Virus record (IMG/VR): IMGVR_UViG_3300028361_000013
Coordinates: 104,583-168,582 of that record
Source: a virus
Length of the DNA: 64,000 nucleotides
Strand: one strand, 5' to 3'
Below are positions 7,108-50,996 of this stretch, in pieces. Position 1 is the first letter of the stretch. Every line of letters begins with the position of its first letter. Made by a program: the position numbers and the translations under genes. The notes below the pieces were generated by a model. It saw only the letters and a list, made by a program, of their open reading frames with translations. It had not been told where the DNA came from and searched no databases.

Positions 7108-7241
7108 ATAAGTTTTTCAGTTCTGGGGTAGTAGATGTGTCTCTCATTGTCTACACTTGTATAACGATAAGAATTTAAAAAGTTACAAAGAATAAAATCT
7201 TTTTCCGATTCGCTTACAAAATGGTTGGCAAGAAAATATAA

Positions 7242-7311
7242 GGCAGGCTGGAGTCTACTCTTTCGGTTCACCTCGGTGACCAGACCCGTCTCGCTGTTCG
7301 CATCGACATTT
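7242..7311 (-). repeat. Intergenic element driven by an orphan class A promoter
   Basis: Core matches GGCAGG(T/C)TGGAGTCTACTC on the plus strand. The class A promoter at 7312-7341 reads straight into it and no ORF follows. Within the transcript GGTCTGGTCACC and GAGGTGAACC can pair. Candidate short structured RNA. Confidence 0.5.
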
Positions 7312-7370
7312 GTATAACGATGTGTTTTTAAAAAGTTACAAATCTGAATTTGACCAGTCCCGACTGGACA

Positions 7371-7401
7371 AAAAAAAACCCCCAGCATAGCTGAAGGTTT
7401 T
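7371..7401 (-). terminator. Intrinsic terminator
   Basis: Minus-strand hairpin AACCTTCAGC-TATG-CTGGGGGTT followed by T7; ends the 78-aa gene at 7422-7658. Confidence 0.75.
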
Positions 7402-7421
7402 CATATATTTGTGTTCAGGGT

Positions 7422-7658
7422 TTAGGCTTTTCTTTTCCCTCTGGCGTGACCAGGAATCTTCTCGTTAGAGAGGTAATGCTTGGTAGGCTCTCCAAGCCCT
7501 TCAGCTTTAATCTTGTTTAGGATGCTTCCAACATCTTCTGGGTTCACACTTGAGAACGATAGAGTGTTAAATGTTTTTTTAACATTAACAATTCCTTCTT
7601 TGGTCTTCTTTTCGTGCGTGTCTTTCTTTGCGCCTGATACGTGTACTGTAAGTCTCAT
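7422..7658 (-). CDS. Small basic protein, unknown
   Basis: 78 aa, Lys/Arg-rich at both ends (C-terminus HARGKRKA). Unlike most neighbours it has no class A promoter. Instead a host-type promoter (7681-7712) overlaps the terminator of the upstream operon. It probably binds nucleic acid, judging from charge only. Confidence 0.75.
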   Translation of the reverse strand: MRLTVHVSGAKKDTHEKKTKEGIVNVKKTFNTLSFSSVNPEDVGSILNKIKAEGLGEPTKHYLSNEKIPGHARGKRKA

Positions 7659-7680
7659 CTCTAATTAATTTTTATGTAAG

Positions 7681-7712
7681 CAAATGTAGTGATTAAAAAA
7701 GAGACTACCAAA
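7681..7712 (-). promoter_or_regulatory. Host-type (Bacteroidetes) promoter
   Basis: Minus strand TTTG (7712-7709), 20 nt, TACATTTG (7688-7681), the TTTG-N19/20-TAnnTTTG form of the primary Bacteroidetes sigma factor. It lies 22 nt before the ATG at 7658. Confidence 0.7.
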
Positions 7713-7728
7713 TGATAATCTCTTTTTA
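7694..7728 (-). terminator. Intrinsic terminator
   Basis: Hairpin AAAAAGAGA...TCTCTTTTTT after the 8597-7750 operon; its 3' half overlaps the -33 region of the host-type promoter. Confidence 0.7.
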
Positions 7729-7749
7729 GTTTATATTGTTTTTGCCTTC

Positions 7750-8085
7750 TTAGGGCTTACGTTTCTTTTTTGAATGCTGTATTGCCCTGCGCTTGTCCAG
7801 TTGCTCACCAGTCATATCCTGGTAGTCCTGTTTAATCTTTTTGTGTGCTGCCTGTGTCTTATCATAAATCTTCTTGGTATTCTCATGGGCTACCTTCGCA
7901 AAGGTGACCCTGGTAAAAGCCAGAGTAATTTCTAAAAATAGAAAAACTGCTGCAATCATTACCAGGCTTAACAGGACGGAGCCGCTCAGGATGTTTGCCA
8001 GAGCAGGTCCAAAAATAATCGCCACCAGAAGCTCCAGAGCGAAAATTTGTTGTCTATATTTTTGTATCCAGAATAAATTAGTCAT
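7750..8085 (-). CDS. Small membrane protein, two TM helices, basic tail
   Basis: 111 aa. Hydrophobic segments near residues 15-33 and 35-57 (LLVAIIFGPALANIL; LLSLVMIAAVFLFLEITLAF), then a basic helical tail ending KKKRKP. Last gene of an operon (109-, 61- and 111-codon genes) starting at 8597; it overlaps the previous gene by 8 nt. Function unknown; a holin-like or sensor role is only a guess. Confidence 0.8.
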   Translation of the reverse strand: MTNLFWIQKYRQQIFALELLVAIIFGPALANILSGSVLLSLVMIAAVFLFLEITLAFTRVTFAKVAHENTKKIYDKTQAAHKKIKQDYQDMTGEQLDKRRAIQHSKKKRKP

Positions 8086-8263
8086 TGCTATGAGTTATTA
8101 AGTTATCGAGCGTCAACCCTTTCTCTTTTGCTTTGTCTGCCATAGCTCCTGAAGCTGCTGCAGCAATTAAGACCATCTCATGGTCTGAAGGAAGTTTTAC
8201 ATCTGAAGAGACTTCTATTGTAATAGTAAGCACTCTTGTTTGTTTTGTTCTTGCGTCTGCCAT
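8078..8263 (-). CDS. Unknown small protein
   Basis: 61 aa, beta-strand-like N-terminus (RVLTITIEVSSDVKLP) followed by an Ala-rich helix. Middle gene of the 8597-7750 operon, 4 nt after its upstream neighbour. Confidence 0.75.
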   Translation of the reverse strand: MADARTKQTRVLTITIEVSSDVKLPSDHEMVLIAAAASGAMADKAKEKGLTLDNLITHSND

Positions 8264-8267
8264 AATA

Positions 8268-8597
8268 TTAAAAGTTTCTGTTTACTAACATTTTTCTAAC
8301 TACGTATCTCACTGTCATTTTGGTAGGAACGTTATTGAATCCAGACCCCATGCAATTGTAAGTATAAACAGTATGACTAACTTCACCTCTCTTGAATCCG
8401 CCTTCTTCAGACTTCTCAATTCTAACATCACCTTGCTTAACAAGTTCTTCAAAATCTCCAGAGGTATTACACTCAATCATATTTTTAACAACATGGTCAG
8501 CTGCCTTTTGACTTGGGAACACTTCCATGTCATAGAAGTTAAATTTGTTCTCTAATTTGCTAAGCTGTCCAATTTCAATAATGTAAACGAATTTCAT
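8268..8597 (-). CDS. Unknown protein
   Basis: 109 aa starting MKFVYIIEIGQLSKLENKF; no recognised domain. Read from the class A promoter at 8663-8692 through a 66-nt leader that contains a terminator-like hairpin (8619-8651), so expression may be attenuated. Confidence 0.8.
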   Translation of the reverse strand: MKFVYIIEIGQLSKLENKFNFYDMEVFPSQKAADHVVKNMIECNTSGDFEELVKQGDVRIEKSEEGGFKRGEVSHTVYTYNCMGSGFNNVPTKMTVRYVVRKMLVNRNF

Positions 8598-8618
8598 ATC
8601 TCTAAGTTTTAATGTGGT

Positions 8619-8651
8619 TAAAAAACCTGCATGAACAATCTCACGCAGGTT
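8619..8651 (-). terminator. Terminator or attenuator inside a leader
   Basis: Minus-strand hairpin AACCTGCGTGAGATT...CATGCAGGTT followed by TTTTTT. It lies between the class A promoter 8663-8692 and the gene at 8597, so it either ends transcripts of the upstream lipoprotein gene or attenuates the downstream operon. Confidence 0.65.
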
Positions 8652-8695
8652 ATGTTATATCTGTATAACGACAGGAATTTAAAAAGTTACAAAGT

Positions 8696-9199
8696 TTACT
8701 TACCAATAGCTAAAACAACATGAGCCTGTGAGGCGTTTTGTGTTTCTATGTTATCATGGTTAAATACTTCTCCAGTAATTGTACTACTTGCATCATCATT
8801 GACTGCCAGAATATAATCTTCCCAATGAAACTCTAAAGGAACAGTTAACAAATAATTATTTGCATTATCATATATGTCTATCGTATAAACGAGACTGGTA
8901 TCTACATTACATTGAAGTGTTGCAAAGTTTGGTGAAGTAACTCCATCAGAATAATTGGAGAATGTTGTAGACAAAGAGTCAACGGACTCATTTGGGCTTT
9001 TTATGACAACTTTGAAGTCATATCCTGCAAATCCATTGCCGTCATCAAAAGAATAAACCTGAAGGTTCATTGCTACTGGTTCATTGGTTGTGACAACTGT
9101 TGTGTCTGGTTCAGGTTTCGGTTCAATTGTTTCTTTCTTGCAACTTGAAATTGAAGTGAACAATCCTGCTAATGCTAATACTAATAAATACTTTTTCAT
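8696..9199 (-). CDS. Putative lipoprotein
   Basis: 167 aa with a lipoprotein signal peptide: MKKYLLVLALAGLFTSISSC, lipobox SISSC with Cys20, then a KKETIEPKPEPD linker and an Asp/Asn/Thr-rich beta domain. It should be lipid-anchored in the host envelope. A phage-encoded lipoprotein could act in superinfection exclusion, but no homologue is recognised. Own class A promoter at 9222-9251; stop codon touches the class A promoter of the next unit. Confidence 0.85.
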   Translation of the reverse strand: MKKYLLVLALAGLFTSISSCKKETIEPKPEPDTTVVTTNEPVAMNLQVYSFDDGNGFAGYDFKVVIKSPNESVDSLSTTFSNYSDGVTSPNFATLQCNVDTSLVYTIDIYDNANNYLLTVPLEFHWEDYILAVNDDASSTITGEVFNHDNIETQNASQAHVVLAIGK

Positions 9200-9252
9200 A
9201 ATAATTGTTTTTAATTTAAGTGTATAACGATGTCAATTTAAAAAGTTACAAT

Positions 9253-9465
9253 TTAGAATAAACTAAGCTGTGTACCTGGTTTTGGCTGTGTTTTGTTTAC
9301 TGGAGTTCCGAGTCTCGGCTTTCCTTCTCCTGGCGTTCCAACCAGAATTTCTACATTACCAATTGCAGCGTACATTCCGCAAAGTGCGTCAATTGCTCTA
9401 CGCCCTGGCTTATCTCTGTAGCCTGCGTGGTTTGCTTTGTGTTTTTTTGAATTTGGGTTTCCCAT
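9253..9465 (-). CDS. Small protein with C-terminal sliding-clamp motif QLSLF
   Basis: 70 aa. The last five residues, QLSLF, match the canonical beta-clamp-binding pentapeptide (QL(S/D)LF) exactly and sit at the extreme C-terminus after a flexible Pro/Gly/Thr segment. The N-terminal half is basic (GNPNSKKHKANHAGYRDKPGRR) followed by a short helix. It could tether to, or block, the host or phage DNA polymerase clamp. Class A promoter 9470-9499; the ATG lies exactly 5 nt after the -10 box (leaderless). Confidence 0.8.
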   Translation of the reverse strand: MGNPNSKKHKANHAGYRDKPGRRAIDALCGMYAAIGNVEILVGTPGEGKPRLGTPVNKTQPKPGTQLSLF

Positions 9466-9563
9466 GATTGTATAACGACAGGAATTTAAAAAGTTACAAT
9501 GAATAAATTCATTTTCCGCTTTGCTTGCAACTTCGTTGTTCGTAACGAAGCAACTTACTATAA

Positions 9564-9597
9564 AAGCGAAAAGCTCGGTGACAAAACCGAGCTTTTC
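9564..9597 (-). terminator. Intrinsic terminator
   Basis: Strong hairpin AAAAGCTCGG-TTTTGTCA-CCGAGCTTTT; ends the class B transcript starting near 9700. Confidence 0.75.
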
Positions 9598-9697
9598 TGA
9601 TAAGAGACAATTCCGTCAGGATATTCCACCTTCAGGATAGACAACTAAAACTTCCAAAAGGAAATCTCGTTAGAATGTAGGTATCTTTCAGCCTACA
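9564..9697 (-). ncRNA. Probable small RNA from a class B promoter
   Basis: About 130 nt between the class B promoter at 9702-9730 and a strong terminator. No ATG-initiated frame of useful length. Internal hairpins TGTAGG/CCTACA and TTTCC-TTTT-GGAAG make it a compact structured RNA. Confidence 0.6.
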
Positions 9698-9701
9698 TTA
9701 T

Positions 9702-9730
9702 CTTATACGTTTATAAATTTAGAATGTTCT
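9702..9730 (-). promoter_or_regulatory. Class B promoter
   Basis: Minus strand AGAACA (9730-9725), 17 nt ending ACG, TATAAG (9707-9702). It lies directly after the stop codon of the 189-aa membrane protein. Confidence 0.75.
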
Positions 9731-9735
9731 ATTTT

Positions 9736-10362: not shown

Positions 10363-10608
10363 TTATTCTGACAACTTTTCGATTATCTCCTGCAGCTCCT
10401 GGACATCCTCTTCTTCTTCAGGAAGGAATTCTATTTCGTTTATGATAACTTGTAATTCTTCAGCTGAAGATATTACTTTAAAAACTGCTGTTGCTTCTTC
10501 TACTTCTGGATAAATTTGTTCAATGGTTTCAATCAGTTGTTGATTTTCTGTCTGGTAACAAAGTTCTACTATTTCTTCAAACAATTGTTTTGCTTCTTTT
10601 AGGTTCAT
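10363..10608 (-). CDS. Acidic helical protein, unknown
   Basis: 81 aa, very rich in Glu (includes an EEEEED run), predicted all-helical. No class A promoter lies upstream. The only nearby one (10665-10694) points the other way, so this gene and that plus-strand promoter diverge. Confidence 0.75.
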   Translation of the reverse strand: MNLKEAKQLFEEIVELCYQTENQQLIETIEQIYPEVEEATAVFKVISSAEELQVIINEIEFLPEEEEDVQELQEIIEKLSE

Positions 10609-10664
10609 GGTTGTTGGTTTTAGATTTTCTGATAAATATGAATTAAAAACCAGAATTCCAACGG

Positions 10665-10694
10665 TTGTAACTTTTTAAACCATTATCGTTATAA
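10665..10694 (+). promoter_or_regulatory. Plus-strand class A promoter without a gene
   Basis: TTGTAACTTTTTAAAC...TCGTTATAAC on the plus strand, one of only three class A copies in this orientation. The only frame behind it is 4 codons (ATG at 10696). Confidence 0.75.
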
Positions 10695-10845
10695 CTATGT
10701 CCCTTGAGTGAAACAGGCAAGGTAAGAATAAGTGCCCTGTGCCTTAAAGTCAAGAGCACAGCCTTGACAGGCAATCCACCCCTGCCCTAAACTTTCCTTA
10801 GACAAAATTGGTCACAAAAAAAGGAGAACATTTCTGCTCTCCTTA
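10695..10845 (+). ncRNA. Candidate structured RNA antisense to the main gene direction
   Basis: Transcript expected from the plus-strand class A promoter, ending at the bidirectional hairpin 10815-10845. It can form nested helices: CAAGG (about 10714) with CCTTG, and CTGTGC with GCACAG, plus a GC-rich tail with ACAGGC repeats. No ORF. The GC content is clearly above the surroundings. Confidence 0.6.
10815..10845. terminator. Bidirectional terminator
   Basis: AAGGAGA-ACATTTCTGC-TCTCCTT; on the minus strand it is followed by T7 (end of the DUF932 gene), on the plus strand by AAGTTTGTTGTTT (end of the small RNA). Confidence 0.7.
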
Positions 10846-10863
10846 AGTTTGTTGTTTAGCATC

Positions 10864-11739
10864 TTATGCATCAAGTAATTCAAGACCTAAGCCATAAACA
10901 ATTTGGTTTGCTTTGTTCTTTGCTCCGAACATTGTACTCAACTCATTTGAACCTCTTGAGTTCATAATATGTGTAGAATAATGTGTGACCCCATTGAATA
11001 ATCCCCAAGCGTTGTTACCAAGCTCTGCCATTTCTGTTCTAATACTTGCAGTAATGTCATCAATCTTGTTCAACTTTTGAGAAGACAACTCTGTGTTTCT
11101 CTCCTTAACAGTCATTGCTCTCTCTTCAACAGTCAAATCAACAAGACGTGCAAGACATTCTTGAACAATCTTTTCATCAATTTTTGTGTTATGAAATCTC
11201 TCAAAGTTTTCGTATAAATTTCTTTCGTAATCTCTATACGTTTGAATGTTTTTAATAATGTCTTCAACTCTTACCATGTTATTTACAGTAAGTCTGCTTT
11301 TGAAGTCCTTCACAATTGAAGAGAATTCATTTGTGCATCTAAGGTAAGTATTTGTGTGACCAATAAAGAAGCTACGCCCTCCGTCAAATCCAACACCAAT
11401 TGTTAACTTACCTTCAATCTTTGAGCCTGCAATCTCAAGAGGCTCGCTCATTTCCATCTGACAAGTAATCACGGGCTTGTTAGCTCCCATTTGCCCTTCA
11501 ACACTATTGTCATTCCAATCCTTAAAAATAAGTCCAGAACCTCCAATTGCACCTGCAACTTCGTTTGCTGTATCAGAGAATTGTTGAGTTGTCATTGGCG
11601 TATAAGACTCTTTCATAACAGCAATGCTTGACCCATTGTCATCACGAGTAATTTCTTTGTACCCTTTTATAGGGTTTCCATTAATGTCAAGAATTCCTGT
11701 TTGCTTAATGTCCCAGTTAAATGCATTTTCATTTTTCAT
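10864..11739 (-). CDS. DUF932 family protein (phage/plasmid-like)
   Basis: 291 aa from the ATG at 11739 (MKNENAFNWDIKQTGI). It matches the DUF932 pattern: a YTPMTTQQFSDTANEVAGAI segment, GFDGGRSFFIGHTNTYLRCTN, and a long helical C-terminal half with NAWGLFNGVTHYSTH. Family members are common on phages and plasmids; their biochemical role is unsettled. Two stacked promoters precede it: class B at 11885-11913 and class A at 11798-11826, so it may be expressed in both phases. A GCAGG...CCTGC hairpin lies in the class A leader. Confidence 0.85.
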   Translation of the reverse strand: MKNENAFNWDIKQTGILDINGNPIKGYKEITRDDNGSSIAVMKESYTPMTTQQFSDTANEVAGAIGGSGLIFKDWNDNSVEGQMGANKPVITCQMEMSEPLEIAGSKIEGKLTIGVGFDGGRSFFIGHTNTYLRCTNEFSSIVKDFKSRLTVNNMVRVEDIIKNIQTYRDYERNLYENFERFHNTKIDEKIVQECLARLVDLTVEERAMTVKERNTELSSQKLNKIDDITASIRTEMAELGNNAWGLFNGVTHYSTHIMNSRGSNELSTMFGAKNKANQIVYGLGLELLDA

Positions 11740-11884: not shown

Positions 11885-11913
11885 CTTATACGTAAGAGAT
11901 TTTAAAATGTTCT
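11885..11913 (-). promoter_or_regulatory. Class B promoter
   Basis: Minus strand AGAACA (11913-11908), 17 nt ending ACG, TATAAG (11890-11885). Lies upstream of the class A promoter of the DUF932 gene. An ATG 3 nt after the -10 box opens a 19-codon frame whose function is unclear. Confidence 0.75.
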
Positions 11914-11997: not shown

Positions 11998-12081
11998 GGG
12001 CAGGTTGGAGCTTGTTCACAAAATCCAACGCACGTTGGAGTCTACTCTTCCGACTTTCTCCGCCAGGCCCTTTTCTTATTT
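11998..12081 (-). repeat. Intergenic element driven by an orphan class A promoter
   Basis: Copy of the GGCAGGTTGGAG(TCTACTCTTCCG) element, here with an internal partial duplication of GTTGGAG. The class A promoter 12082-12111 reads into it; there is no ORF. Confidence 0.55.
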
Positions 12082-12136
12082 GTATAACGATGGATATTTA
12101 AAAAGTTACAACGCTGCGCTCGTTCGGGGCAACGCA

Positions 12137-12308: not shown

Positions 12309-12950
12309 TTATGAGACATTATTTTCAAGGTTAGCTAATTTCTTTTTAAGAATCTCTTTACCTCTTGCAACAGCTGTTCTAAGTGTTGAATTCAATTCAA
12401 GACCAAGAGCCTTTGCCGTTTCTTCAAAACTCATTTCATCAATGTATCTGCAAATCATTAATTCACGAACTTTTTTGGACTTAATAGAATTAACTGCATC
12501 AGAAACTTGTTTTGTTACCTCATCATGAACAAGAATTTGCAATGGGTTTGGAGTATCTGAATCTAATTGAAATTCCATTCCATCATTGTCGTCTGACGTC
12601 TTACTTTGAAGCGAATCCAAAGAAAGAACTTCGAACTTTGCTTTTCTCAACAAGTCAATCAAAGAGTTGTTTGCAATCTTGTACAACCAAGTAGAAAATG
12701 CACCCACTTTTGGGTCATAAGTGTTAATGTTCTCATGCGCCTTTACAAAAGTTATCATAAGCAAATCCTCAGCAACATCTGTATCTCTCAATCTCTTGAG
12801 GAAGTGAATGCGGACTTGTTGGTTGTGTCTACCATACAGCTTACTAAAAGCATCATCTTTTGCTCTTGCTGTGGCATTAATATCTTGAAGCACTGCTACG
12901 TTTGCTTTATCTTTAGTAGCTTGTTCTGAATCTTTCTTTACGTTTGTCAT
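12309..12950 (-). CDS. ECF-like RNA polymerase sigma factor
   Basis: 213 aa. Region 2 spans about residues 34-100: AFSKLYGRHNQQVRIHFLKR, then DTDVAEDLLMITFVKAHENI (the DAEDL..TF.KA.. signature), then FSTWLYKIANNSLIDLLRK. After an acidic linker, region 4 (about residues 160-210) shows ELMICRYIDEMSFEETAKAL and a recognition helix STLRTAVARGKEILKKKL. This two-domain layout is that of ECF/sigma70 region 2-4 factors. It should redirect host RNA polymerase. I infer that it recognises the class B promoters, whose GAAC -35 motif resembles ECF targets. Its own gene has a class A promoter (12979-13008), so it would be made early. Confidence 0.92.
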   Translation of the reverse strand: MTNVKKDSEQATKDKANVAVLQDINATARAKDDAFSKLYGRHNQQVRIHFLKRLRDTDVAEDLLMITFVKAHENINTYDPKVGAFSTWLYKIANNSLIDLLRKAKFEVLSLDSLQSKTSDDNDGMEFQLDSDTPNPLQILVHDEVTKQVSDAVNSIKSKKVRELMICRYIDEMSFEETAKALGLELNSTLRTAVARGKEILKKKLANLENNVS

Positions 12951-12994
12951 ATCTCTCTCTATTTATTGGTTCGTGTATGTATAACGATGGTTAT

Positions 12995-13903
12995 TTAAAA
13001 AGTTACAAAATACTTTTTAGTTAATTCACTCATCAGTTTTGTAACTGATAAACAAATCTCAAGGTCATCATCAATAGAATTATAAATCACCTTAATCTTC
13101 TTGTTGAATTCTTTCTTAAATACAGAATACGAATCGTGGTTCCTGTAGGCGTTTGAATACTGGAAGATGATGTTCATTAACATCTCTGGCAAAGTGACAC
13201 CCATTTTAATTACATCCCATTCTTCTTGAGTGTAGAACTTCATCACCTCAACTCCTGAAGAGAACTCATAATAAATCGAGTCCAGTTGACCCATTCTATT
13301 TTTCTTCGTATCCATTGTTCTAACTCCTGTTTTAGAGTTGTACTCTAAGTGTACCTGAACATCCGCATCGAACAACATTCCTGACGGTCCTGAAAACGTG
13401 TTGTCTTTATTCAACTGACAAATAAGAATTACAATTCCTTGCGTCTCATCTTTCCATCTGTATAAAGAGTCCAGTACGTGGTGGTAAGCCTCATCTTTTC
13501 CCATGCCTTTTTTCCTAAGTTGTTTCACAGCGTGTTGAAGTGAATCAACCATAACAAATCTTGGCTTATCTCTATAAATGAAATCCATGAACTCATCAAA
13601 GTCTTGGTAATCTTTCCCGTCAGTAATAAAACAGTTGGAATGTGTTTTAATTCTAAGAGTTTGTCTCTTAACTGAAGACGCTAAACTTTCTAAGGCGTGA
13701 AATAATGTTGGTTTTTTAATTTCTCTTTGAATCAGTTTGCAAAGAGTTGTCTTACCTGCACCTGAAGTTCCTGTCATAAGAATCAGGTTTCCAAGTTCGA
13801 ACCCTCCATTGTTAGAAAGGAACAGGTCAAGAGTTTTAATCCCTGTCTTAATAGACGGAGTATTAATAATCTCAACTTCATCATATGTTCTTTTCGTTTT
13901 CAT
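12995..13903 (-). CDS. RadA/RecA-like ATPase
   Basis: 302 aa. Walker A GTSGAGKTT (about residues 44-52), Walker B FVMVDSLQ (about 115), and a later ICQLNKDNTFSGPSGMLFDADV segment that parallels the RadA/Sms 'H.TKDG..AGP..L.H..D' loop. The family remodels recombination intermediates or acts as a DnaB-like helicase. No N-terminal zinc finger or C-terminal Lon-like domain is present, so it is a core-only enzyme. The last codons (VTF-stop) are supplied by the class A promoter sequence itself (12979-13008). It is 7 nt from the upstream 69-aa gene. Confidence 0.85.
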   Translation of the reverse strand: MKTKRTYDEVEIINTPSIKTGIKTLDLFLSNNGGFELGNLILMTGTSGAGKTTLCKLIQREIKKPTLFHALESLASSVKRQTLRIKTHSNCFITDGKDYQDFDEFMDFIYRDKPRFVMVDSLQHAVKQLRKKGMGKDEAYHHVLDSLYRWKDETQGIVILICQLNKDNTFSGPSGMLFDADVQVHLEYNSKTGVRTMDTKKNRMGQLDSIYYEFSSGVEVMKFYTQEEWDVIKMGVTLPEMLMNIIFQYSNAYRNHDSYSVFKKEFNKKIKVIYNSIDDDLEICLSVTKLMSELTKKYFVTF

Positions 13904-13910: not shown

Positions 13911-14120
13911 TTAGTTTAATTTTGCTGTATCATTGTATACTGGAGAAACATCTGTAAATGCTACATATGTTACTGCCTCAGCAGCGAGCATTCTTGTGAC
14001 CAACTTGTCACACACTATGAATGTATCGAAAAATGCTTCATCAGTCATCATCCCTCTAAGCATATCATACTCTCCTTTGTTTATAATCTTTTTCTTTATG
14101 CTAAAATCTCTCTTCTTCAT
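13911..14120 (-). CDS. Unknown small protein upstream of RadA-like gene
   Basis: 69 aa starting MKKRDFSIKKKIINKGEYDM; basic N-terminus, mixed C-terminus. Class A promoter 14132-14161 drives it and, 7 nt later, the RadA-like gene, so a role alongside that ATPase is likely. Confidence 0.75.
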   Translation of the reverse strand: MKKRDFSIKKKIINKGEYDMLRGMMTDEAFFDTFIVCDKLVTRMLAAEAVTYVAFTDVSPVYNDTAKLN

Positions 14121-14323: not shown

Positions 14324-14352
14324 ATTATACGATTTTAAATTTTAAAAGTTCT
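14324..14352 (-). promoter_or_regulatory. Class B promoter overlapping a gene end
   Basis: Minus strand AGAACT (14352-14347), 17 nt ending TCG, TATAAT (14329-14324). The element encodes the C-terminus (IELLKFKIV) and stop of the 325-aa gene. Confidence 0.8.
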
Positions 14353-17036: not shown

Positions 17037-17258
17037 TCAGTTAACCTTAACATCAAAAGTCTTACATAGTTCTTTGTCTATATTTACAATCGAAACATAT
17101 AGCAATTTACCGCTGTAGAAAGGTATCTTTCTCATTAACGCTGACTCAACTTGGCTAATTCTTGTAAATCCGCTATCATATACTGAAGCTAAAATTTTTC
17201 TACTTTTTGAGCAACATACAGTTGCTTTAATTGTATCTGTTTCTTTAATTCTAAACAT
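17037..17258 (-). CDS. Unknown protein, paralogue of the gene at 20526
   Basis: 73 aa. It aligns over its full length with the 76-aa protein at 20526-20756: FRIK..DT.KAT..CS.S.K.LA..YDSGFT, then SALMRKIPFY.GKL and FDVKVN at the end, roughly 60% identical by eye. Probable small beta protein; function unknown. Class A promoter 17286-17315. Confidence 0.8.
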   Translation of the reverse strand: MFRIKETDTIKATVCCSKSRKILASVYDSGFTRISQVESALMRKIPFYSGKLLYVSIVNIDKELCKTFDVKVN

Positions 17259-17426: not shown

Positions 17427-18236
17427 TTATTTCAATAGCTTGGCAATATCTTCTGCCGAAGCCTTAGACTTCAATTTGTTAACAATTGCTTTAAGTACTG
17501 CTGCTTTACCACTTGCAGGGTTATCCTCAATTGCAAGTTCAATTGCTGCTTCCAACTTGGCAACATCCGCTGACAATTTCTTTGTGTTAGCATTTGCTGA
17601 GGTAGCCTTCTTTTTCTTTGGCTCTCCATCCTCATCCCCTGCATCAACATTCGCATTTGCCACAGCCTCTTCTGCCAACTTCACTTGCTCTTCTGGGTCT
17701 TTGGTTGTTCTCTGAATCTCATTCACAAGAGCCACAGAAATCAATCCTTTCTCAACCATGTCTTGAATGGTCTGAGGTGCTTTGGTGACATTAATAATGT
17801 TGTACACCTGCGCTTGTGAAAGACCTACGTTTGCACCAATCTCCAACGGCTTCATTCCCATTGCTTTAAGTCTTGCAAACCCAGTAGCCATCTCAGAGGC
17901 TGAAAGTTTCTTTGAAGCCTCTCCATCAAGCAACATTGTTAAGACACGACCTTTCTCATCTCCTTTTGCGCTCATCACATTTACGTGAGTAATGTTTGCA
18001 CCATACTTTTTGTTGGCAATCGCAATTGCTGCCAATCTACGGTGTCCTGCTGTCAAGAGGAATTTGTCCTCTCCACGAACTTTCGTTGCAATAATTGGAG
18101 TCTGCTGTCCAAGTTTTGCAATTGACTGAGCGAGCGCATCAATGTCTCCAAGGTCTGTTCTGACGTTGAATCCCTTCTCAACAATTATTGCTGCTAATGC
18201 TACTTTGTAAAAATCACTTTTTTGAATTATTTTCAT
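17427..18236 (-). CDS. ParB-like DNA-binding protein
   Basis: 269 aa. N-terminal ParB/Srx fold with NVRTDLGDIDALAQSIAKLG and the nucleotide-binding motif TAGHRRLAA (about residues 63-71). A central HTH follows (GMKPLEIGANVGLSQAQVYNIINV, about 130-155), then an acidic linker and an Ala/Lys-rich helical tail. Phage ParB-like proteins act in partition, DNA binding or nicking; no ParA is visible here. Class A promoter 18264-18293. Confidence 0.88.
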   Translation of the reverse strand: MKIIQKSDFYKVALAAIIVEKGFNVRTDLGDIDALAQSIAKLGQQTPIIATKVRGEDKFLLTAGHRRLAAIAIANKKYGANITHVNVMSAKGDEKGRVLTMLLDGEASKKLSASEMATGFARLKAMGMKPLEIGANVGLSQAQVYNIINVTKAPQTIQDMVEKGLISVALVNEIQRTTKDPEEQVKLAEEAVANANVDAGDEDGEPKKKKATSANANTKKLSADVAKLEAAIELAIEDNPASGKAAVLKAIVNKLKSKASAEDIAKLLK

Positions 18237-18293
18237 AATATGTATTTGTTTATTGGTTCACTTGTATAACGATGGCAATTTAAAAAGTTACAA

Positions 18294-18506
18294 TTAAACT
18301 ATAACTTTCTCAACAGAATCATCAATAACACTTGAAGAAACTTTAATTTTTCTTGTAAATGTTTCACTATCTTCAGGTGCAAGCCCTTCTCTATCAGCTG
18401 CAAATGACAAACCATCTGCAACATTGTGCATGACTTCACGAATATCTCCATCTGAACACACCTTATCTTCAAATTCTATTTCTACTGTAAAAATTAATTT
18501 TTTCAT
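18294..18506 (-). CDS. Unknown small protein
   Basis: 70 aa, acidic: a beta strand (KLIFTVEIEFEDKV), a helix, then a second strand pair (TRKIKVSSSVIDD), suggesting a ferredoxin-like fold. Single-gene class A unit (promoter 18530-18559). Confidence 0.75.
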   Translation of the reverse strand: MKKLIFTVEIEFEDKVCSDGDIREVMHNVADGLSFAADREGLAPEDSETFTRKIKVSSSVIDDSVEKVIV

Positions 18507-20525: not shown

Positions 20526-20756
20526 CTATCGGTTTACTTTAACGTCAAAAGACTTATGTGTCTCTTCATCAATATTTGTAATTGAAATGCTTATTAACTT
20601 TCCGCCATAGAAGGGTATCTTCCTCATCAAAGCTGACCTAGCGCTATTAATTGTTGTAAAGCCACTATCGTATAGTGTTGCTAAAAGCTTTCCACTTCTT
20701 GAGCAGGTTGCTGTTGCTTTAACTGTATCTCTATCTTTAATTCTAAATCTTGACAT
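20526..20756 (-). CDS. Unknown protein, paralogue of the gene at 17037
   Basis: 76 aa, about 60% identical by eye to the 73-aa protein at 17037-17258 (shared RFRIKDRDTVKAT, YDSGFT, SALMRKIPFYGGKL, SFDVKVN). It follows the 64-aa gene by 7 nt in a two-gene class A unit (20989-21018). Confidence 0.8.
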   Translation of the reverse strand: MSRFRIKDRDTVKATATCSRSGKLLATLYDSGFTTINSARSALMRKIPFYGGKLISISITNIDEETHKSFDVKVNR

Positions 20757-20958: not shown

Positions 20959-21057
20959 TGTCTTAATGTTTTTTTATTGGTTATGACTATATAACGATGG
21001 CAATTCAAAAAGTTACAAAACGCCTAAAACAATAAAATATAGGTCAAAAAAGTTTAA

Positions 21058-21112
21058 GGCAGGTTGGAGTCTACTCTTCCGCCATTTTTGAATGTCGTGC
21101 CCGTCTCCATGT
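21058..21112 (-). repeat. Intergenic element driven by an orphan class A promoter
   Basis: GGCAGGTTGGAGTCTACTC followed by TTCCGCC, with GGGCA/TGCC ends able to pair. The class A promoter 21113-21142 reads into it; no ORF follows before 20989. Confidence 0.55.
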
Positions 21113-21146
21113 GTATAACGATAGGAATTCAAAAAGTTACAAAGCA

Positions 21147-26393: not shown

Positions 26394-26422
26394 AGAACTT
26401 TATTCTTATATTTGCGTATAAT
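26394..26422 (+). promoter_or_regulatory. Class B promoter for the tRNA cluster
   Basis: AGAACT (26394-26399), 17 nt ending TTTGCG, TATAAT (26417-26422); tRNA-Met begins 28 nt later. It points away from the neighbouring class A promoter. Confidence 0.8.
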
Positions 26423-26450
26423 AAATAAAAAAGATTACTATTTATATATA

Positions 26451-26521
26451 GTGCGGTGGAGCAGTTGGTAGCTCGCAAGGCTCATAATCTTGAGGTCGTC
26501 AGTTCGAGTCTGGCCTGCGCA
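26451..26521 (+). tRNA. tRNA-Met (CAU)
   Basis: D-arm GAGC-AGTTGGTA-GCTC, anticodon arm CAAGG-CTCATAA-TCTTG (CAU), T-arm GTCAG-TTCGAGT-CTGGC; acceptor GTGCGG/CTGCGC with two G-U pairs. The central part closely follows the flavobacterial initiator/elongator tRNA-Met pattern. First gene after the class B promoter. Confidence 0.9.
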
Positions 26522-26536
26522 ACAAAAAATAAGAAA

Positions 26537-26611
26537 ATGAAAAGATTTGTAAACATAGAGAACAGTGAACGTTTGGAGGAGACTCCACTACTTCGCTATG
26601 CTCTAAGTTAA
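26537..26611 (+). CDS. Possible 24-residue peptide between tRNAs
   Basis: ATG at 26537, TAA at 26609-26611; 24 residues (MKRFVNIENSERLEETPLLR..). Sits between tRNA-Met and a terminator. Unverified. Confidence 0.25.
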   Translation: MKRFVNIENSERLEETPLLRYALS

Positions 26612-26652
26612 CAAACCAGATTGAGGGATTTTTAAATCGCAAAATCGTAGTC

Positions 26653-26687
26653 AAGAGGATAGCACAAGTGTTATCCTCTTTTTTTGT
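26653..26687 (+). terminator. Intrinsic terminator
   Basis: AAGAGGATA-GCACAAGTG-TTATCCTCTT followed by T-run. It separates tRNA-Met from the two Glu-type tRNAs, which may be processed from read-through. Confidence 0.75.
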
Positions 26688-26697
26688 GCTTATATTT

Positions 26698-26779
26698 CTT
26701 GCGTTATACAAGCGGCTCAAAGTAACTGCCCTTTCAAGGCAGCCCGAAAGGTTCATCGGTTCGAATCCGATACGCAAGA
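26698..26779 (+). tRNA. tRNA-Glu (UUC) with a long variable region
   Basis: Acceptor CTTGCGT/ACGCAAG, anticodon arm CTGCC-CTTTCAA-GGCAG (UUC), T-arm ATCGG-TTCGAAT-CCGAT. The variable region is 12 nt (contains CC-GAAA-GG), unusual for a Glu tRNA, and the D-stem is short (TAC/GTA). Confidence 0.75.
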
Positions 26780-26785
26780 CCAAAC

Positions 26786-26859
26786 GCTCCGTTAGTGTAG
26801 CGACCCAACACGTCTCACTTTCTATGAGAAGACCATCGGTTTGAATCCGATACGGAGTG
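26786..26859 (+). tRNA. tRNA-Glu-like (UUC), second copy, atypical loops
   Basis: Acceptor GCTCCGT/ACGGAGT, D-stem GTG/CAC, anticodon arm TCTCA-CTTTCTA-TGAGA (UUC, U at 37), T-arm ATCGG-TTTGAAT-CCGAT. The T-loop has U at position 56 and the D-loop lacks the GG pair, so the usual G19-C56 contact is missing. Confidence 0.65.
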
Positions 26860-26937
26860 CAAGTTAATAGCCCTATAAACTTAATTGTGAAATTGGGGTT
26901 CGATTTTATATTTTTTATCTATTTATAATAAAAATAG

Positions 26938-40825: not shown

Positions 40826-41248
40826 TTATGACTTTAAGTAAAAGTTGTGGTGTTTTTCAAGAATTTCTCTTTGAATCGCTACTTCTTTAATCGCTTCATC
40901 AAGTTTTTTTGAATACTTCGCTTCAACTTCTTCAATGAGTCCATCGACTCTAATTCTTTTATGAAAGAAGGTACGGTTTATGCGCTCTTTTTCAGCCTTA
41001 ATTCGGTTTATAATACTTTCCTTGGTTTGAAGCGCTCCTGTATATTCTAAAGACTTTACACAATGAAATGAAGGCTTCATAATTTCTTCGAACTCTGTTT
41101 TGAATTCTGAAATGCTTTTGCCAGCATATTTTTCATTTAGTTTGTCTTCCATCTTTCCTTCGTGAGGAAAATCTGTAATAACACCATCTTTTACGTTAAT
41201 AAAAATAGGGTGTCCAAATGCTCTGTCTATATAAAATTGTGCGTCCAT
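40826..41248 (-). CDS. Unknown protein, leaderless
   Basis: 140 aa (MDAQFYIDRAFGHPIFINVK..), C-terminal half coiled coil (IEEVEAKYSKKLDEAIKEVA). ATG 5 nt after the -10 box of class A promoter 41253-41282. Confidence 0.78.
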   Translation of the reverse strand: MDAQFYIDRAFGHPIFINVKDGVITDFPHEGKMEDKLNEKYAGKSISEFKTEFEEIMKPSFHCVKSLEYTGALQTKESIINRIKAEKERINRTFFHKRIRVDGLIEEVEAKYSKKLDEAIKEVAIQREILEKHHNFYLKS

Positions 41249-41283
41249 ATCTGTATAACGATTGAAGTTTAAAAAGTTACAAT

Positions 41284-44646: not shown

Positions 44647-44731
44647 GTCTTTTGTATTGGTTACAAGCATATAACGATAGTAATTCAAAAAGTTACAATT
44701 TCATTCGTCATGACGAACAAGGAAAATATAA

Positions 44732-44784
44732 GGCAGGTTGGAGTCTACTCTTCCGACTTATAAAGCCAGGCCCGTTTCCTATTT
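44732..44784 (-). repeat. Intergenic element driven by an orphan class A promoter
   Basis: GGCAGGTTGGAGTCTACTC plus TTCCG, flanked by GGGCC. Class A promoter 44785-44814 reads into it. Next to it, at 44704-44717, is the 14-bp palindrome TTCGTCATGACGAA. Confidence 0.55.
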
Positions 44785-44814
44785 GTATAACGATACGATT
44801 TCAAAAAGTTACAA

Positions 44815-47609: not shown

Positions 47610-47662
47610 ATCTGTATAACGATGAGGTTTTAAAAAGTTACAAGGGAGAGTTTTAAAAAAAG

Positions 47663-47733
47663 AGGGCGTGTTGGAGTCTACTCTTCCGCCATTTTTGAAA
47701 TGTCATGCCCGTATCAGTTTCCTACCTACATTC
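47663..47733 (-). repeat. Intergenic element driven by an orphan class A promoter
   Basis: TTGGAGTCTACTCTTCCGCC copy with GGGCATGACATTT upstream, almost as in the 21058 copy. Class A promoter 47734-47763 reads into it. Confidence 0.55.
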
Positions 47734-47789
47734 ATATAACGATGGTTATTTAAAAAGTTACAACGCTTCGCTCGTTCGGGGCAAACAAA

Positions 47790-47818
47790 GAAAAGGGAGA
47801 CTTTTCAGCCTCCCCTTA
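47790..47818 (-). terminator. Intrinsic terminator
   Basis: AAGGGGAGGCTGAAAAGTCTCCCTTTTC after the SprT-like gene. Confidence 0.6.
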
Positions 47819-47846
47819 TTGTCGTAACCACACAAACAATAATCTC

Positions 47847-48425
47847 TTAATAGTTCTGTATCTGTGTTAGTGCATACTTTTCGGTGTATCTTCCGTTGTT
47901 GTGTTCGTTACAACATTTTCCACAAGCACTAATTCTTTTCTTCTTTTTGTGACTCGCACTTTTTTTCCCGCATCCATTTTCACAAACTAATGTGTATTTA
48001 CTTTGAGTGTCGCTAATGTCCTCCGACTTGTAGCATCTTTCTGCGGTGCAAAGTACTTTTCTTGCTATTGCTTTCCACACGTTGTTGTGGTGGTTTCTTC
48101 CTCCCATTGCTCCATCAAGTGCGTGCGCTAATTCGTGACGCAATGTGTTTTCAAATTCTAATCCTTTGCTTAAGTTTTGAGTTACCAAATACTTTGAAAG
48201 GTAAATCGTTTTGTTTCTGTAATTACAAAGACCTGCTGCTCTTTTTCTTGAATTATACTCAAACTTCCACCCCAATTCTTTTAAGTTAATAACACTTGCT
48301 TCTTTGAAACTGTAAATATCAATTGTCCAAATCGTTGCAAGTAATCTGTTTGCTAATCTTTCAAGTTCTCCAAGGGTTGTCTTACAGTTTTCCTCGAAGT
48401 GCATTTCTTTTGTTAAGTCTTTCAT
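47847..48425 (-). CDS. SprT-like zinc metalloprotease
   Basis: 192 aa. Active-site motif LRHELAHALD (HExxH, about residues 88-97), followed by a second zinc region HNNVWKAIARK. A C-terminal zinc ribbon follows, with CENGCGKK and ISACGKCC cysteine pairs around basic residues. This is the SprT/Spartan layout, linked to DNA-protein crosslink processing. N-terminal helical part normal in length. Class A promoter 48450-48479. Confidence 0.85.
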   Translation of the reverse strand: MKDLTKEMHFEENCKTTLGELERLANRLLATIWTIDIYSFKEASVINLKELGWKFEYNSRKRAAGLCNYRNKTIYLSKYLVTQNLSKGLEFENTLRHELAHALDGAMGGRNHHNNVWKAIARKVLCTAERCYKSEDISDTQSKYTLVCENGCGKKSASHKKKKRISACGKCCNEHNNGRYTEKYALTQIQNY

Positions 48426-48473
48426 TGTCGTTGTTTTTATGTTACATACATATAACGATACGATTTCAAAAAG

Positions 48474-48605
48474 TTACAATTTCTTTCTCTGCGCTTTTCT
48501 CTTCTCTCTGCGCTTTTCTTTTCCACACTTTGGAATGTCAAAGTTTTTGGTGGTTCTACCCTCATCACTATAAGGGTTTGTTATGTAATAAATTTTATCA
48601 ACCAT
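48474..48605 (-). CDS. Small basic protein
   Basis: 43 aa (MVDKIYYITNPYSDEGRTTK.., ends KRREKRKAQRKKL). Very basic tail suggests nucleic-acid binding. Starts 1 nt after the upstream stop; the final TTG-TAA is the -35 box of class A promoter 48450-48479. Confidence 0.75.
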   Translation of the reverse strand: MVDKIYYITNPYSDEGRTTKNFDIPKCGKEKRREKRKAQRKKL

Positions 48606-48606
48606 C

Positions 48607-48999
48607 TTATCCAAAAATTACTTCTCCATATAAACAGTGCTGAAGCAATTCAGTAGCCGTTATCGCATCATCCCCCTCTTCTTTGTAGGTCAACACTATT
48701 TCAGACGCATCTTCATTGCTAAGGGCTTCTATCGCACCCTCAAGCGTGAATTCTAACGCTTCATCCCCCTCATAGTCAAAAAACTGTAAAGGCTTTCCGC
48801 TTTTAAGAATTTGAGCGTAAATGTCCTCACGACACGGGCTATTGTCATTCTCTGCGTTCCAAGTGTTTTTCGCTTCCTCATAGTCCTCTTGAACTATGTT
48901 TAATCGAACCGAACACATTGCGAGTTCGCTTAACCCTCCGTTGCAAAGTGCGTTATGCACCATCTCTAAAACTTCTACTTTATCTAAAATAATTTTCAT
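48607..48999 (-). CDS. Unknown acidic protein
   Basis: 130 aa (MKIILDKVEVLEMVHNALCN..). Class A promoter 49023-49052; followed by the 43-aa basic gene. Confidence 0.75.
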   Translation of the reverse strand: MKIILDKVEVLEMVHNALCNGGLSELAMCSVRLNIVQEDYEEAKNTWNAENDNSPCREDIYAQILKSGKPLQFFDYEGDEALEFTLEGAIEALSNEDASEIVLTYKEEGDDAITATELLQHCLYGEVIFG

Positions 49000-49056
49000 G
49001 TCTTTTGTTTTTGGTTACAAGTGTATAACGATACGATTTCAAAAAGTTACAATTAT

Positions 49057-49320
49057 CTAAGCTTCAAAATCTCCAATATATAATTTTCCATTTTGAAAAC
49101 TTGGCTCATATTCTCCATGCTCTGCTTCCATGTCATCAGTTTCAAAAAACGTGCTATCTGCCGCTTTCTCTAATTTGTGGCATACACATATAACAACTGA
49201 CATATCTCCTTGCATTGGGTGCTCAAAGAACTCTATCTCTTGACCCTTTGAGTTTGTCATTGCTCCGTAGCTTGTCGGGTTATGCTCCATTAATTTTTCG
49301 TACTTATAATGCTTTGCCAT
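49057..49320 (-). CDS. Unknown protein
   Basis: 87 aa (MAKHYKYEKLMEHNPTSYGA..). Class A promoter 49347-49376. Confidence 0.75.
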   Translation of the reverse strand: MAKHYKYEKLMEHNPTSYGAMTNSKGQEIEFFEHPMQGDMSVVICVCHKLEKAADSTFFETDDMEAEHGEYEPSFQNGKLYIGDFEA

Positions 49321-49370
49321 TTTGTTTGTCTTTATTGGTTACAAGTGTATAACGAAATGAATTTAAAAAG

Positions 49371-49613
49371 TTACAAAACGTTTGCAAGGTTTGTGAAATA
49401 TGCAAAATCAATTAACATCATTTCTTTTTGTGCCACGGGGAGAGTTGCAAAATTTGGTGAGCAAATCATATCGCCCAAGGCTTGCATTTTTTGTATTGTC
49501 TGAGCTTGTAAGTGACCCGTAGGCATTTCGCCCATTTGTTGAGGTTGGGGAGAGTTTTGTCCTTCTAACTCTTCTGCTTGTCTTTTTGACGGTGTGTTGA
49601 ATCCTATTGCCAT
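49371..49613 (-). CDS. Unknown protein, Gln/Met-rich
   Basis: 80 aa (MAIGFNTPSKRQAEELEGQN.., later MGEMPTGHLQAQTIQKMQAL). Stop is part of class A promoter 49347-49376. Own class A promoter 49640-49669. Confidence 0.75.
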   Translation of the reverse strand: MAIGFNTPSKRQAEELEGQNSPQPQQMGEMPTGHLQAQTIQKMQALGDMICSPNFATLPVAQKEMMLIDFAYFTNLANVL

Positions 49614-49670
49614 TTTGTTTATCTTTATTGGTTACATAGATATAACGATAGCAATTCAAAAAGTTACAAT

Positions 49671-49889
49671 CTAATTAGGGAGAGTTTCAATGCGTTCTAA
49701 GGTGTTTTTATCTACTGAGTAAGGCTGGCTATGCCCGTTACCTTTTAAGACCAATACAATAGGTATTGGGGAGAGTTCTAATAGTATTCCATGCACAGTA
49801 ACGCCATCGCCAATGCCACACGTACCAACTGCCTTAACAAGTCCGCCAATCATCTTTTTTGCATCTTCTAATAATACTATCTTTGCCAT
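49671..49889 (-). CDS. Unknown small protein
   Basis: 72 aa (MAKIVLLEDAKKMIGGLVKA..). No class A promoter lies between it and the terminator upstream, so it depends on read-through or an unseen promoter. Three GGGAGA motifs flank or overlap it (49679, 49769, 49892). Confidence 0.7.
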   Translation of the reverse strand: MAKIVLLEDAKKMIGGLVKAVGTCGIGDGVTVHGILLELSPIPIVLVLKGNGHSQPYSVDKNTLERIETLPN

Positions 49890-49910
49890 TAGGGAGAGTT
49901 TCTAAGTTTA

Positions 49911-49941
49911 TAAAAAAAAAGGGGAGCAATTCGCCCCCCTC
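49911..49941 (-). terminator. Intrinsic terminator
   Basis: GAGGGGGGCGAATTGCTCCCCTTTTTTTTT after the 189-aa gene. Confidence 0.75.
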
Positions 49942-49957
49942 GTTGTTGTTTCGTTTC

Positions 49958-50527
49958 TTATCCCTCAATTAGGTACATATTACCATTCATATTGAAAGAA
50001 ATTAAGTTGTTAAAGTCAAGCGTTCTGAAAAAGAAGTTATTTTCTTCGTTAATCGTTCCACGTCCTGCAACTGCATTTGGTTTCAATCCCGCAGGTGTAA
50101 TGTAAGTATCATTCCAAACATCTTTACGGTCAACTAACTTTCCATCTAAAATCAATTGTGTTTGTGGCTTTGAATGTCCTTCAACAATGAATACTAAGTA
50201 TCTTTTTTCTTGTGTCTTTGTGTCCATACACACTGGGTTTCCTTCTGAAACATAATCTTTACCTCTCATTGGTTGCGCTTCAAAAACAATTTCCTTTCCC
50301 TCTCTGTCAAGAATTTTGTTAACTTTCTTTGCATAATCACTCCCTATTGTTGCGTTCGTTTCAACCATTTTCTGTAAAACTTTCTTACCTTTTACAGTTT
50401 TAGACTTTGACTCGTCTACTAAGTATGCAATGTTTGAAAATGCTACACCCGAAGCCGAAACTTCTTTTTTGTAGTTAGTGAACATTGTTACTGCTTGGTC
50501 TCTTGTAATTCTTACTAAATTTTTCAT
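49958..50527 (-). CDS. Unknown protein at the head of the minus-strand array
   Basis: 189 aa (MKNLVRITRDQAVTMFTNYK..), basic N-terminal helix region with GKKVLQKMV, then a beta-rich C-terminal half ending FNNLISFNMNGNMYLIEG. Like the DUF932 gene, it has a class B (50621-50648) and a class A (50556-50585) promoter in series, suggesting sustained expression. Confidence 0.78.
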   Translation of the reverse strand: MKNLVRITRDQAVTMFTNYKKEVSASGVAFSNIAYLVDESKSKTVKGKKVLQKMVETNATIGSDYAKKVNKILDREGKEIVFEAQPMRGKDYVSEGNPVCMDTKTQEKRYLVFIVEGHSKPQTQLILDGKLVDRKDVWNDTYITPAGLKPNAVAGRGTINEENNFFFRTLDFNNLISFNMNGNMYLIEG

Positions 50528-50620
50528 AATGTTTGTTTTATTATTGGTTACATACTTATAACGATATGTTTTTAAAAAGTTACAAAATCAAATTTCTACC
50601 TTAGAAAGTTCGCTTACTTT

Positions 50621-50648
50621 CTTATACGCAAATAAAAATTAATGTTCT
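50621..50648 (-). promoter_or_regulatory. Class B promoter (16-nt spacer)
   Basis: Minus strand AGAACA (50648-50643), 16 nt ending TTTGCG, TATAAG (50626-50621). It overlaps nothing coding and diverges from the plus-strand class A promoter at 50655. Confidence 0.7.
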
Positions 50649-50654
50649 ATATCT

Positions 50655-50684
50655 TTGTAACTTTTTGAATTTTGGTCGTTATAT
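50655..50684 (+). promoter_or_regulatory. Plus-strand class A promoter
   Basis: TTGTAACTTTTTGAATTT...TCGTTATAT; leader ATATGTAACCAATAAAAACA before the ATG at 50712. Confidence 0.85.
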
Positions 50685-50711
50685 ATATGTAACCAATAAA
50701 AACATTAAAAG

Positions 50712-50972
50712 ATGATTGATTTAACGCAAGAGCAAAAGAACAAAATTCAGGAGAATACTGTAAGAGATTCAGGAGTCATTTGCTTTGAAGAGTACCATTC
50801 AGCTGACGGTGAAGTAACAGTAACCAATATTAATATTAACAAGCAGCCTGGATTCTATGCCGACAGGGTATATACCTTAAAAAACAAAAACAAAAACATT
50901 CTTGTCTCTAAAAGCGCTGGTGATATTCTTGATGAATATACAAAGATAATGCTTGTAAAATTAAAATTGTAA
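50712..50972 (+). CDS. Unknown protein
   Basis: 86 aa (MIDLTQEQKNKIQENTVRDS..), one of only two plus-strand class A genes. The final TTG-TAA belongs to the class A promoter at 50967-50996, as in the minus-strand array. Confidence 0.78.
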   Translation: MIDLTQEQKNKIQENTVRDSGVICFEEYHSADGEVTVTNININKQPGFYADRVYTLKNKNKNILVSKSAGDILDEYTKIMLVKLKL

Positions 50973-50996
50973 CTTTTTAAATTCCTGTCGTTATAT
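50967..50996 (+). promoter_or_regulatory. Plus-strand class A promoter
   Basis: TTGTAACTTTTTAAATTCC...TCGTTATAT, leader with GTAACCAAACAAG, before the ATG at 51022. Confidence 0.85.

Follow-up and report, generated by a model that had tools for sequence, protein, structure and literature searches.

Near-identical, probably ECF-type promoters in a phage gene block and a candidate sigma factor to read them

The window analyzed here, a 64,000-nucleotide (nt) stretch of viral DNA (positions 104583-168582 of the 168,582-bp record IMGVR_UViG_3300028361_000013), carries 74 near-identical copies of a short element, termed class A, that is very probably a promoter. We think it likely that class A is of the extracytoplasmic function (ECF) type and is read by the host core RNA polymerase together with an ECF sigma factor encoded in the window, in a self-amplifying circuit of about 75 units. 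This large phage seems to have given the gene block a private on-switch, and what had been an anonymous repeat becomes a testable sigma factor-promoter pair with a very large and very uniform target set.

The class A element and its gene units

The array spans 7159-50996, with 71 elements on the minus strand and 3 on the plus strand, just as an earlier sequence-only reading of this DNA had counted them; dinucleotide shuffles (n = 100) gave a mean of 0.01 matches and a largest of 1. That reading had placed eight free bases between the two conserved parts, a pattern that taken literally has no match even at 3 mismatches. The real spacer is N7 before CGTTATAC, and every copy lies within 2 mismatches of the corrected 30-mer TTGTAACTTTTTRAA-N7-CGTTATAC. 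The final C of this 30-mer is C in 47 copies, T in 20 and A in 7, and the 29-bp core TTGTAACTTTTTRAA-N6-TCGTTATA is matched exactly by 68 of the 74 and with one mismatch by the other 6. Searching the window with the core gave no sites at 2 or 3 mismatches; the next-best sites have 4 mismatches (6986, plus strand, alike in the left half only) and then 5, and in the 100 shuffles a 4-mismatch site arose once and 5-mismatch sites 29 times. Position by position, the copies have a (near-)invariant TTGTAACTTTTT(A/G)AA, a soft 6-bp middle and an invariant TCGTTATA. All 74 contain AAC-N15-CGTT, and class A can be written TGTAAC-N15-CGTT. Only one further exact copy occurs in the record beyond the window, at 60660, and the array is thus confined to this block. 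The soft middles are identical in 54 pairs of copies, against a mean of 14.3 and a largest value of 42 in 2000 shuffles, and the identical ones are not clustered; the excess fits copying between promoters, and it also fits a correlated base preference.

Downstream of the core, 73 of the 74 copies have a pyrimidine/purine (YR) step in the same position, and we infer that its purine, the sixth base after TATA, is the transcription start (+1). An A-rich leader follows, reading (A/G)TAACCAA from the purine onward in 29 copies. In 10 elements an ATG stands exactly on the predicted +1 purine, and 9 of these lead into an open reading frame (ORF) of at least 30 amino acids. For the 72 elements followed by an ATG ORF of at least that length (the other 2 have none in the stretch searched), the ATG begins 0 nt from +1 in 9, 1-16 nt in 2 and 17-24 nt in 42. 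One leaderless unit is headed by the minus-strand element at 41253-41282 (ORF 40826-41248); the cores of the nine other elements with ATG on +1 start at 9471, 26348, 27918, 28237, 28793, 35193, 39330, 46654 and 47615. The three plus-strand elements lie at 10665-10694, where the first ATG ORF of at least 30 amino acids begins 167 nt past the predicted start, at 50655-50684 (ATG 23 nt past it, ORF 50712-50972) and at 50967-50996 (21 nt, ORF 51022-51162). The sequence-only reading had called the element promoter-like, and the YR step, the ATGs on the purine and the promoter swap described in the next section bear this out.

The units that follow the 71 minus-strand elements hold one gene in 38 cases, two in 15, none in 11 and three or more in 7, counts that are approximate because the gene calls come from a simple in-house codon-usage script. 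The notion of typically one promoter per gene therefore holds as the commonest case; the remaining units have two genes, none, or three or more. Elements are packed tightly against the genes before them: 10 of the 74 overlap a called gene, always the end of the upstream one, the TAA within TTGTAAC serves as the stop of the upstream called gene in 9, and in 24 the upstream called gene stops 0-4 nt ahead of the element. Thirteen of the 74 elements have a terminator-like hairpin in the 70 nt before them, compared with 19 of 740 random positions. The sequence-only reading had supposed that the block may be an early-gene region whose cassettes might be gained or lost by recombination between promoters. 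Among 100 called proteins of the block, the sole paralogous pair at E < 1e-3 is 17037-17258 and 20526-20756; the similarity of their DNA breaks off some 5 bases into the element that precedes the first copy, and no element precedes the second (n = 1).

A small RNA-like gene behind two kinds of probable promoter

In five class A units the place of an initial ORF is taken by a short conserved element of the form GGG(C/T) - variable stem - G(G/A)AAGAGUAGACUCCA. The record gave no copies beyond these five, which all lie in the window on the minus strand, each behind a class A element: 47662-47716 (element 47734-47763), 44729-44779 (44785-44814), 21055-21108 (21113-21142), 12026-12076 (12082-12111) and 7239-7293 (7312-7341). 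A search with an exact 18-mer from this sequence, GGAAGAGTAGACTCCAAC, hit 35 viral contig stretches; 23 other contigs account for 30 of them. Across the window and the other loci (L045-L074 and L089) the gene can be summarized as GGGC - variable stem - GGAAGAGUAGACUCCA.

The consensus promoter of the Bacteroidota primary sigma factor has TAnnTTTG at -7. In the other phages TAnnTTTG was found within 110 nt upstream of 17 of 22 non-redundant copies of the RNA-like gene, compared with 14% of random 110-nt windows, and 14 of the 22 also have TTG 17-23 nt before it (random, 4%). Copies with identical flanks had been removed before counting and aligning, and L054, although outside the RNA alignment, was scored as a miss in the 17 of 22. 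Among the other-phage copies that have TAnnTTTG, the RNA core starts 10-11 or 19-30 nt after TTTG; in the window it starts 11-12 or 24-25 nt after TCGTTATA. Given the same gene, the host-type promoter before it elsewhere and the matching distances, the class A element occupies the usual place of a host-type promoter. We regard this swap as the strongest evidence that class A is a promoter, and it points to a host that is probably a member of the Bacteroidota. The element was rightly described as unlike the host TAnnTTTG form: of the 74 copies, one continues into a TTTG at the corresponding position by coincidence.

The same motif is present in Tenacibaculum phage Larrie, behind a host-type promoter, and Cellulophaga phages gave a weak match to it (E 5). 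The RNA-like genes of the window and of six other loci had no Rfam match, and RNAalifold supported a short hairpin, GAG-UAGA-CUC, only; the gene may represent an undescribed phage RNA family. With a host-type promoter elsewhere and a phage-type one here, these genes amount to a natural experiment.

The candidate sigma factor and competing readings

Within the array, at 12309-12950 on the minus strand, lies a gene for an ECF (group 4) sigma factor of 213 amino acids, the proposed reader of class A. Its sigma2 region matches Pfam Sigma70_r2 (PF04542; 1.1e-14, 54.3 bits against a cut-off of 24), and residues 33-205 match the NCBIfam sigma70-ECF model TIGR02937 with 80.9 bits against 42.9. A profile built from nine phage sigma sequences, two of them from this phage, had SigW as its top match in PDB over the whole length (2.8e-32), and Foldseek likewise paired the AlphaFold 2 (AF2) model of the protein with SigW (1.4e-7). 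The individual regions resemble sigmaE in complex with promoter DNA, with weak E-values and close shapes: region 2 matches 2map (root mean square deviation (rmsd) 1.2, TMt 0.81, E 0.034) and region 4 matches the sigmaE piece in 2h27 (rmsd 2.7, E 0.02). No further Pfam domain was found in the protein, and a low-confidence linker at 106-133 of the model, under 50 residues, joins the parts.

Published ECF promoters bear AAC at -35 and CGT at -10 as hallmarks, and autoregulation is frequent among ECF sigma factors (PMC8103513, in the text available). Cited consensuses are TGAAAC-N16,17-CGTA for SigW and CGTAAC-N16-CGTTGA for BldN (PMC2375139, available text). We favor the ECF type over sigma70 for class A because its AAC/CGTT boxes fit ECF promoters, the phage encodes an ECF sigma factor behind a copy of the element, and the element reads poorly as sigma70, with weak box matches and many (near-)invariant bases in the supposed spacer. 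A class A element at 12979-13008 (minus strand) precedes the sigma gene itself, with the ATG 24 nt past the predicted start, a usual leader length, and we propose that the sigma factor is positively autoregulated through it.

In the mechanism we propose, TTGTAACTTTTT would act as the -35 box and TCGTTATA as the -10 box, the YR initiator would set +1, and host core RNA polymerase carrying the phage ECF sigma factor would read the element. The first sigma molecules would be made from a class B promoter (described below) or a host-type promoter, or by read-through; since the sigma gene sits behind a class A element, its synthesis would then amplify itself. Some 75 units, most of them with one or two genes, would thereby come on together without the host's own sigma factor. 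The start of transcription at the element, the choice of the window sigma rather than the second ECF sigma as reader, and the order of these events are all predictions from the DNA. If they are right, a private ECF code has taken the place of host-type promoters across 40 kb of a Bacteroidota phage, which retains an arrangement in many single-gene units that in other phages works with the host code. An orthogonal, uniform promoter of this kind could serve as an expression tool in Bacteroidota. A bolder version, which we hold only tentatively, has the phage running a three-sigma cascade (one RpoD-like and two ECF sigma factors), one member of which would command an orthogonal regulon of about 75 promoters that replaced host-type promoters unit by unit; copying would keep the array uniform, and any small gene inserted behind a copy would join at once.

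The competing reading with most in its favor exchanges the partners, so that class A would be read by the second ECF sigma factor of this phage (record 17677-18312) or by a host ECF sigma factor, and the window sigma would read class B. The phage does have two ECF sigma factors and two ECF-type promoter classes, the second ECF protein could be the reader, and autoregulation is common among ECF sigma factors without being universal, at around 55% (PMC8103513, available text). We nevertheless consider this exchange unlikely: the class assigned to each ECF gene is the one that stands ahead of it (class A at 24 nt from the window sigma gene, class B before the ORF adjoining the second), and a scan of cellular genomes (257 Gb) returned one isolated match to a slightly relaxed class A element and hence no class A array in the genomes scanned. 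The assignment of class A to the window sigma and of class B to the second ECF sigma follows from the autoregulation argument alone.

The sequence-only reading had instead taken the elements for strong sigma70-type promoters, which the host primary sigma would use at once after infection. In its favor, a TTG is suitably placed, the -10 region is rich in A and T and, with TTGTAA and TTATAC as hexamers, the spacing is 18 nt. By inspection, however, these hexamers agree with TTGACA at 4 of 6 positions and with TATAAT at only 2 of 6. A sigma70 spacer would not be expected to contain, as the supposed one does, (near-)invariant bases at 11 of its 18 positions, and the same RNA-like gene in other phages stands mostly behind TAnnTTTG. 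The sigma70 assignment thus fares poorly, and we regard it as improbable.

Slightly less probable still is that class A is where a single-subunit RNA polymerase of the phage starts, or where a phage activator binds to recruit the host polymerase. A sequence (near-)invariant over 29 bp resembles T7-type promoters more than ordinary sigma promoters, but a bipartite layout, with -35 and -10 boxes around a variable 6-bp middle, fits a sigma factor, an ECF sigma gene lies inside the array, and neither of two polymerase models tried recognized a polymerase in the record. A multisubunit RNA polymerase gene was not found there by a search whose control was positive in 14 of 14 genomes. Least probable of all is a signal that acts in the RNA, be it for processing, termination or translation, rather than a promoter. 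Such a signal would suit the upstream hairpins and the abutting or overlapped gene ends but sits badly with the 10 ATGs on +1, which leave a translation signal no leader, with the host-type promoters that replace the element before homologous RNA-like genes, and with the five copies that precede an RNA-like gene instead of an ORF.

A number of results weigh against the pairing of class A with the window ECF sigma that we prefer. The sigma4 region of the protein scores 19.1 bits with Pfam PF08281, below the cut-off of 25.7; the AF2 model is of moderate confidence (pLDDT 70.8, pTM 0.49); and the AAC-N15-CGTT spacing is one base shorter than in the cited ECF consensuses. No AAC-N14-18-CGT lies within 200 nt upstream of this phage's own second ECF gene, and among 15 other phage ECF genes 2 have one there, with a per-locus background of 2-36%, a result that argues against AAC/CGT before phage ECF genes as a general rule. 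A dyad search for an ECF-type array found none in 13 other sigma-bearing records or loci, including crAss-like, Lak, huge-phage and Rhizobium phage ones; it covered parts of 11-100 kb of these records, with shuffles as controls since reversal preserves dyads. Sigma region 2 matches at E <= 0.01 occur in 15 of the 23 records that carry the RNA-like gene, in 9 of them over the cut-off, and three of these 9 matches are in frames of ECF size, about 200 amino acids. The sigma gene of one record, G011, follows a host-type box. Sigma genes therefore occur in phages where host-type promoters prevail, and an ECF gene alone does not predict an ECF array. The Pfam model PF00940 for single-subunit RNA polymerase had no match in the record and none in the controls either, which leaves room for such a polymerase. 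Finally, host-type TTG-N17-23-TAnnTTTG sites number 27 in the window and 13 in its reversed sequence, used as control. Some promoters of the host type are therefore probably still present and, we would guess, could act first. Sites of this kind with an ATG within about 50 nt lie at 7711, 23850 and 27209 (all minus strand) and are candidate host-read promoters inside the array.

Class B, relatives and known systems

Besides its window sigma, the record encodes the second ECF sigma factor (17677-18312) and an RpoD-like one (10382-11320), both outside the window and given in record coordinates. The class B motif, GAACNTT-N13-CGTATAA, occurs 37 times in the record at up to 1 mismatch, 27 on the plus and 10 on the minus strand, against 1 and 1 in a backward control. 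The site GAACTTT-N13-CGTATAA at 14325-14351 of the window (minus strand; record 118907-118933) lies upstream of the ATPase/sigma stretch and could possibly start expression of the window sigma. No anti-sigma factor was recognized beside that sigma gene, where the upstream neighbor, 12995-13903, encodes a KaiC/AAA ATPase and the 69-residue product of 13911-14120 has no Pfam match, so that one may nonetheless be present. Between a class B copy 258 nt upstream of the second ECF gene and the gene itself lies an ORF of 74 codons, which stops 2 nt short of the gene; the ORF (L018 1199-1423) appears hydrophobic and may encode an anti-sigma factor. Two class-B-like boxes stand ahead of the RpoD-like gene. 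Within the minus-strand array, a plus-strand class B site at 26395-26421 is followed by three tRNA genes (26395-26860 in all), and other exact class B copies occur in the window at 1576-1602 (plus), 3742-3768 (plus), 6952-6978, 9703-9729, 11886-11912 and 62997-63023 (these four minus).

A motif search in viral contigs, which the sequence-only reading had suggested, did recover the exact class A pattern, in two contigs; both, however, belong to this same phage (identity 99.98-100% over the compared pieces), and there is thus no independent array. A relaxed pattern contributes one match each in five further contigs. A host promoter was considered and thought unlikely in view of the single isolated match among cellular genomes. 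A search for close relatives of the window sigma gave the same phage and one match at 24%; searching with an alignment added six more at 28-34%. ECF sigma genes are common in crAss-like and Lak phages; their 'sigma-W' genes are homologous, at 25-34% identity among the matches listed (40 of 79 records), yet no ECF-type promoter array was found in the crAss-like and Lak records or stretches examined. The large terminase is 27-31% identical to its relatives among the matches listed (15 of 2,439 records), phages that we take to be T4-like, and this similarity places the phage near them by sequence.

The class A/sigma pair appears akin to known phage sigma regulons. Those of phiEco32 gp36 and Salmonella phage 7-11 gp47 comprise six and eight promoters (PMC8948821); there, as is predicted here from sequence, a phage-encoded sigma factor redirects the host RNA polymerase to phage-specific promoters. 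The 7-11 promoter, GTAAtg-(16)-aCTA, is bipartite and shares GTAA with class A, although class A differs overall from phiEco32-like promoters, tAATGTAtA or GTAAtg-(16)-aCTA. In phiEco32 and 7-11, different phages with different hosts, the promoters described precede middle/late or late genes, whereas here 74-75 near-identical copies most often serve one gene each and two ECF sigma factors and an RpoD-like one share a record. The main text on those sigma factors does without the term ECF (PMC8948821), as does the available text of a jumbo phage review, which lists sigma factors, some of them RpoD-like, in group 2 (PMC7824862). With Bacillus subtilis SigW and Streptomyces coelicolor BldN, as far as the available text describes them, the present system shares the AAC/CGT(T) boxes, a protein with sigma2 and, probably, sigma4 and an element before the sigma gene; it differs from these regulons in being in a phage, in its shorter spacing and in the lack of a recognized anti-sigma factor beside the window sigma.

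Promoters of cellular ECF regulons are typically far less uniform than class A. A coarse search of the open-access literature on phage sigma factors, with most subscription papers outside its reach, surfaced no such system. The layout recurs on host-type promoters. In other phages that carry the same RNA-like gene, near-identical host-type arrays (TTTGG...CTTATCTTTGT) are present at L058, L067 and L068 and at L051, L071, L073 and L074, where TTTGG-N23-TTTGT reaches 22 copies in 25 kb and 25 in 27 kb; like class A, they put many near-identical promoters in one block, several of them followed by ATG, but they use TTTG...TAnnTTTG where class A has an ECF form. The layout is thus shared, and the ECF chemistry was found only here. 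G011 (L055) had been a candidate for a second non-host array and was rejected, as its boxes read host-like, TATATTTA/G.

Class B gave a single match in each of 3 of 28 other records, and the backward control gave a single match in one of these 3. At L081 (record G022, 344 kb) the only class B match lies 94 nt before the ECF gene, with one match also in the backward control, and a dyad search over 40 kb found no array there. Other repeats were seen at host-type promoters: at L062 (4535, 7666 and 8927) a palindrome, GCATAAGTGAAAACTTATGC, recurs just upstream of TTATCTTTG, and at L059 (8862-11784) TTATC-N9-TCGTA lies ahead of a TTTTG box; both are possible operators built into host-type promoters. 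A Lak phage stretch (L039, 4252-6395, minus strand) carries five near-identical copies of GAACTTGAATTnGTTTCAAA.

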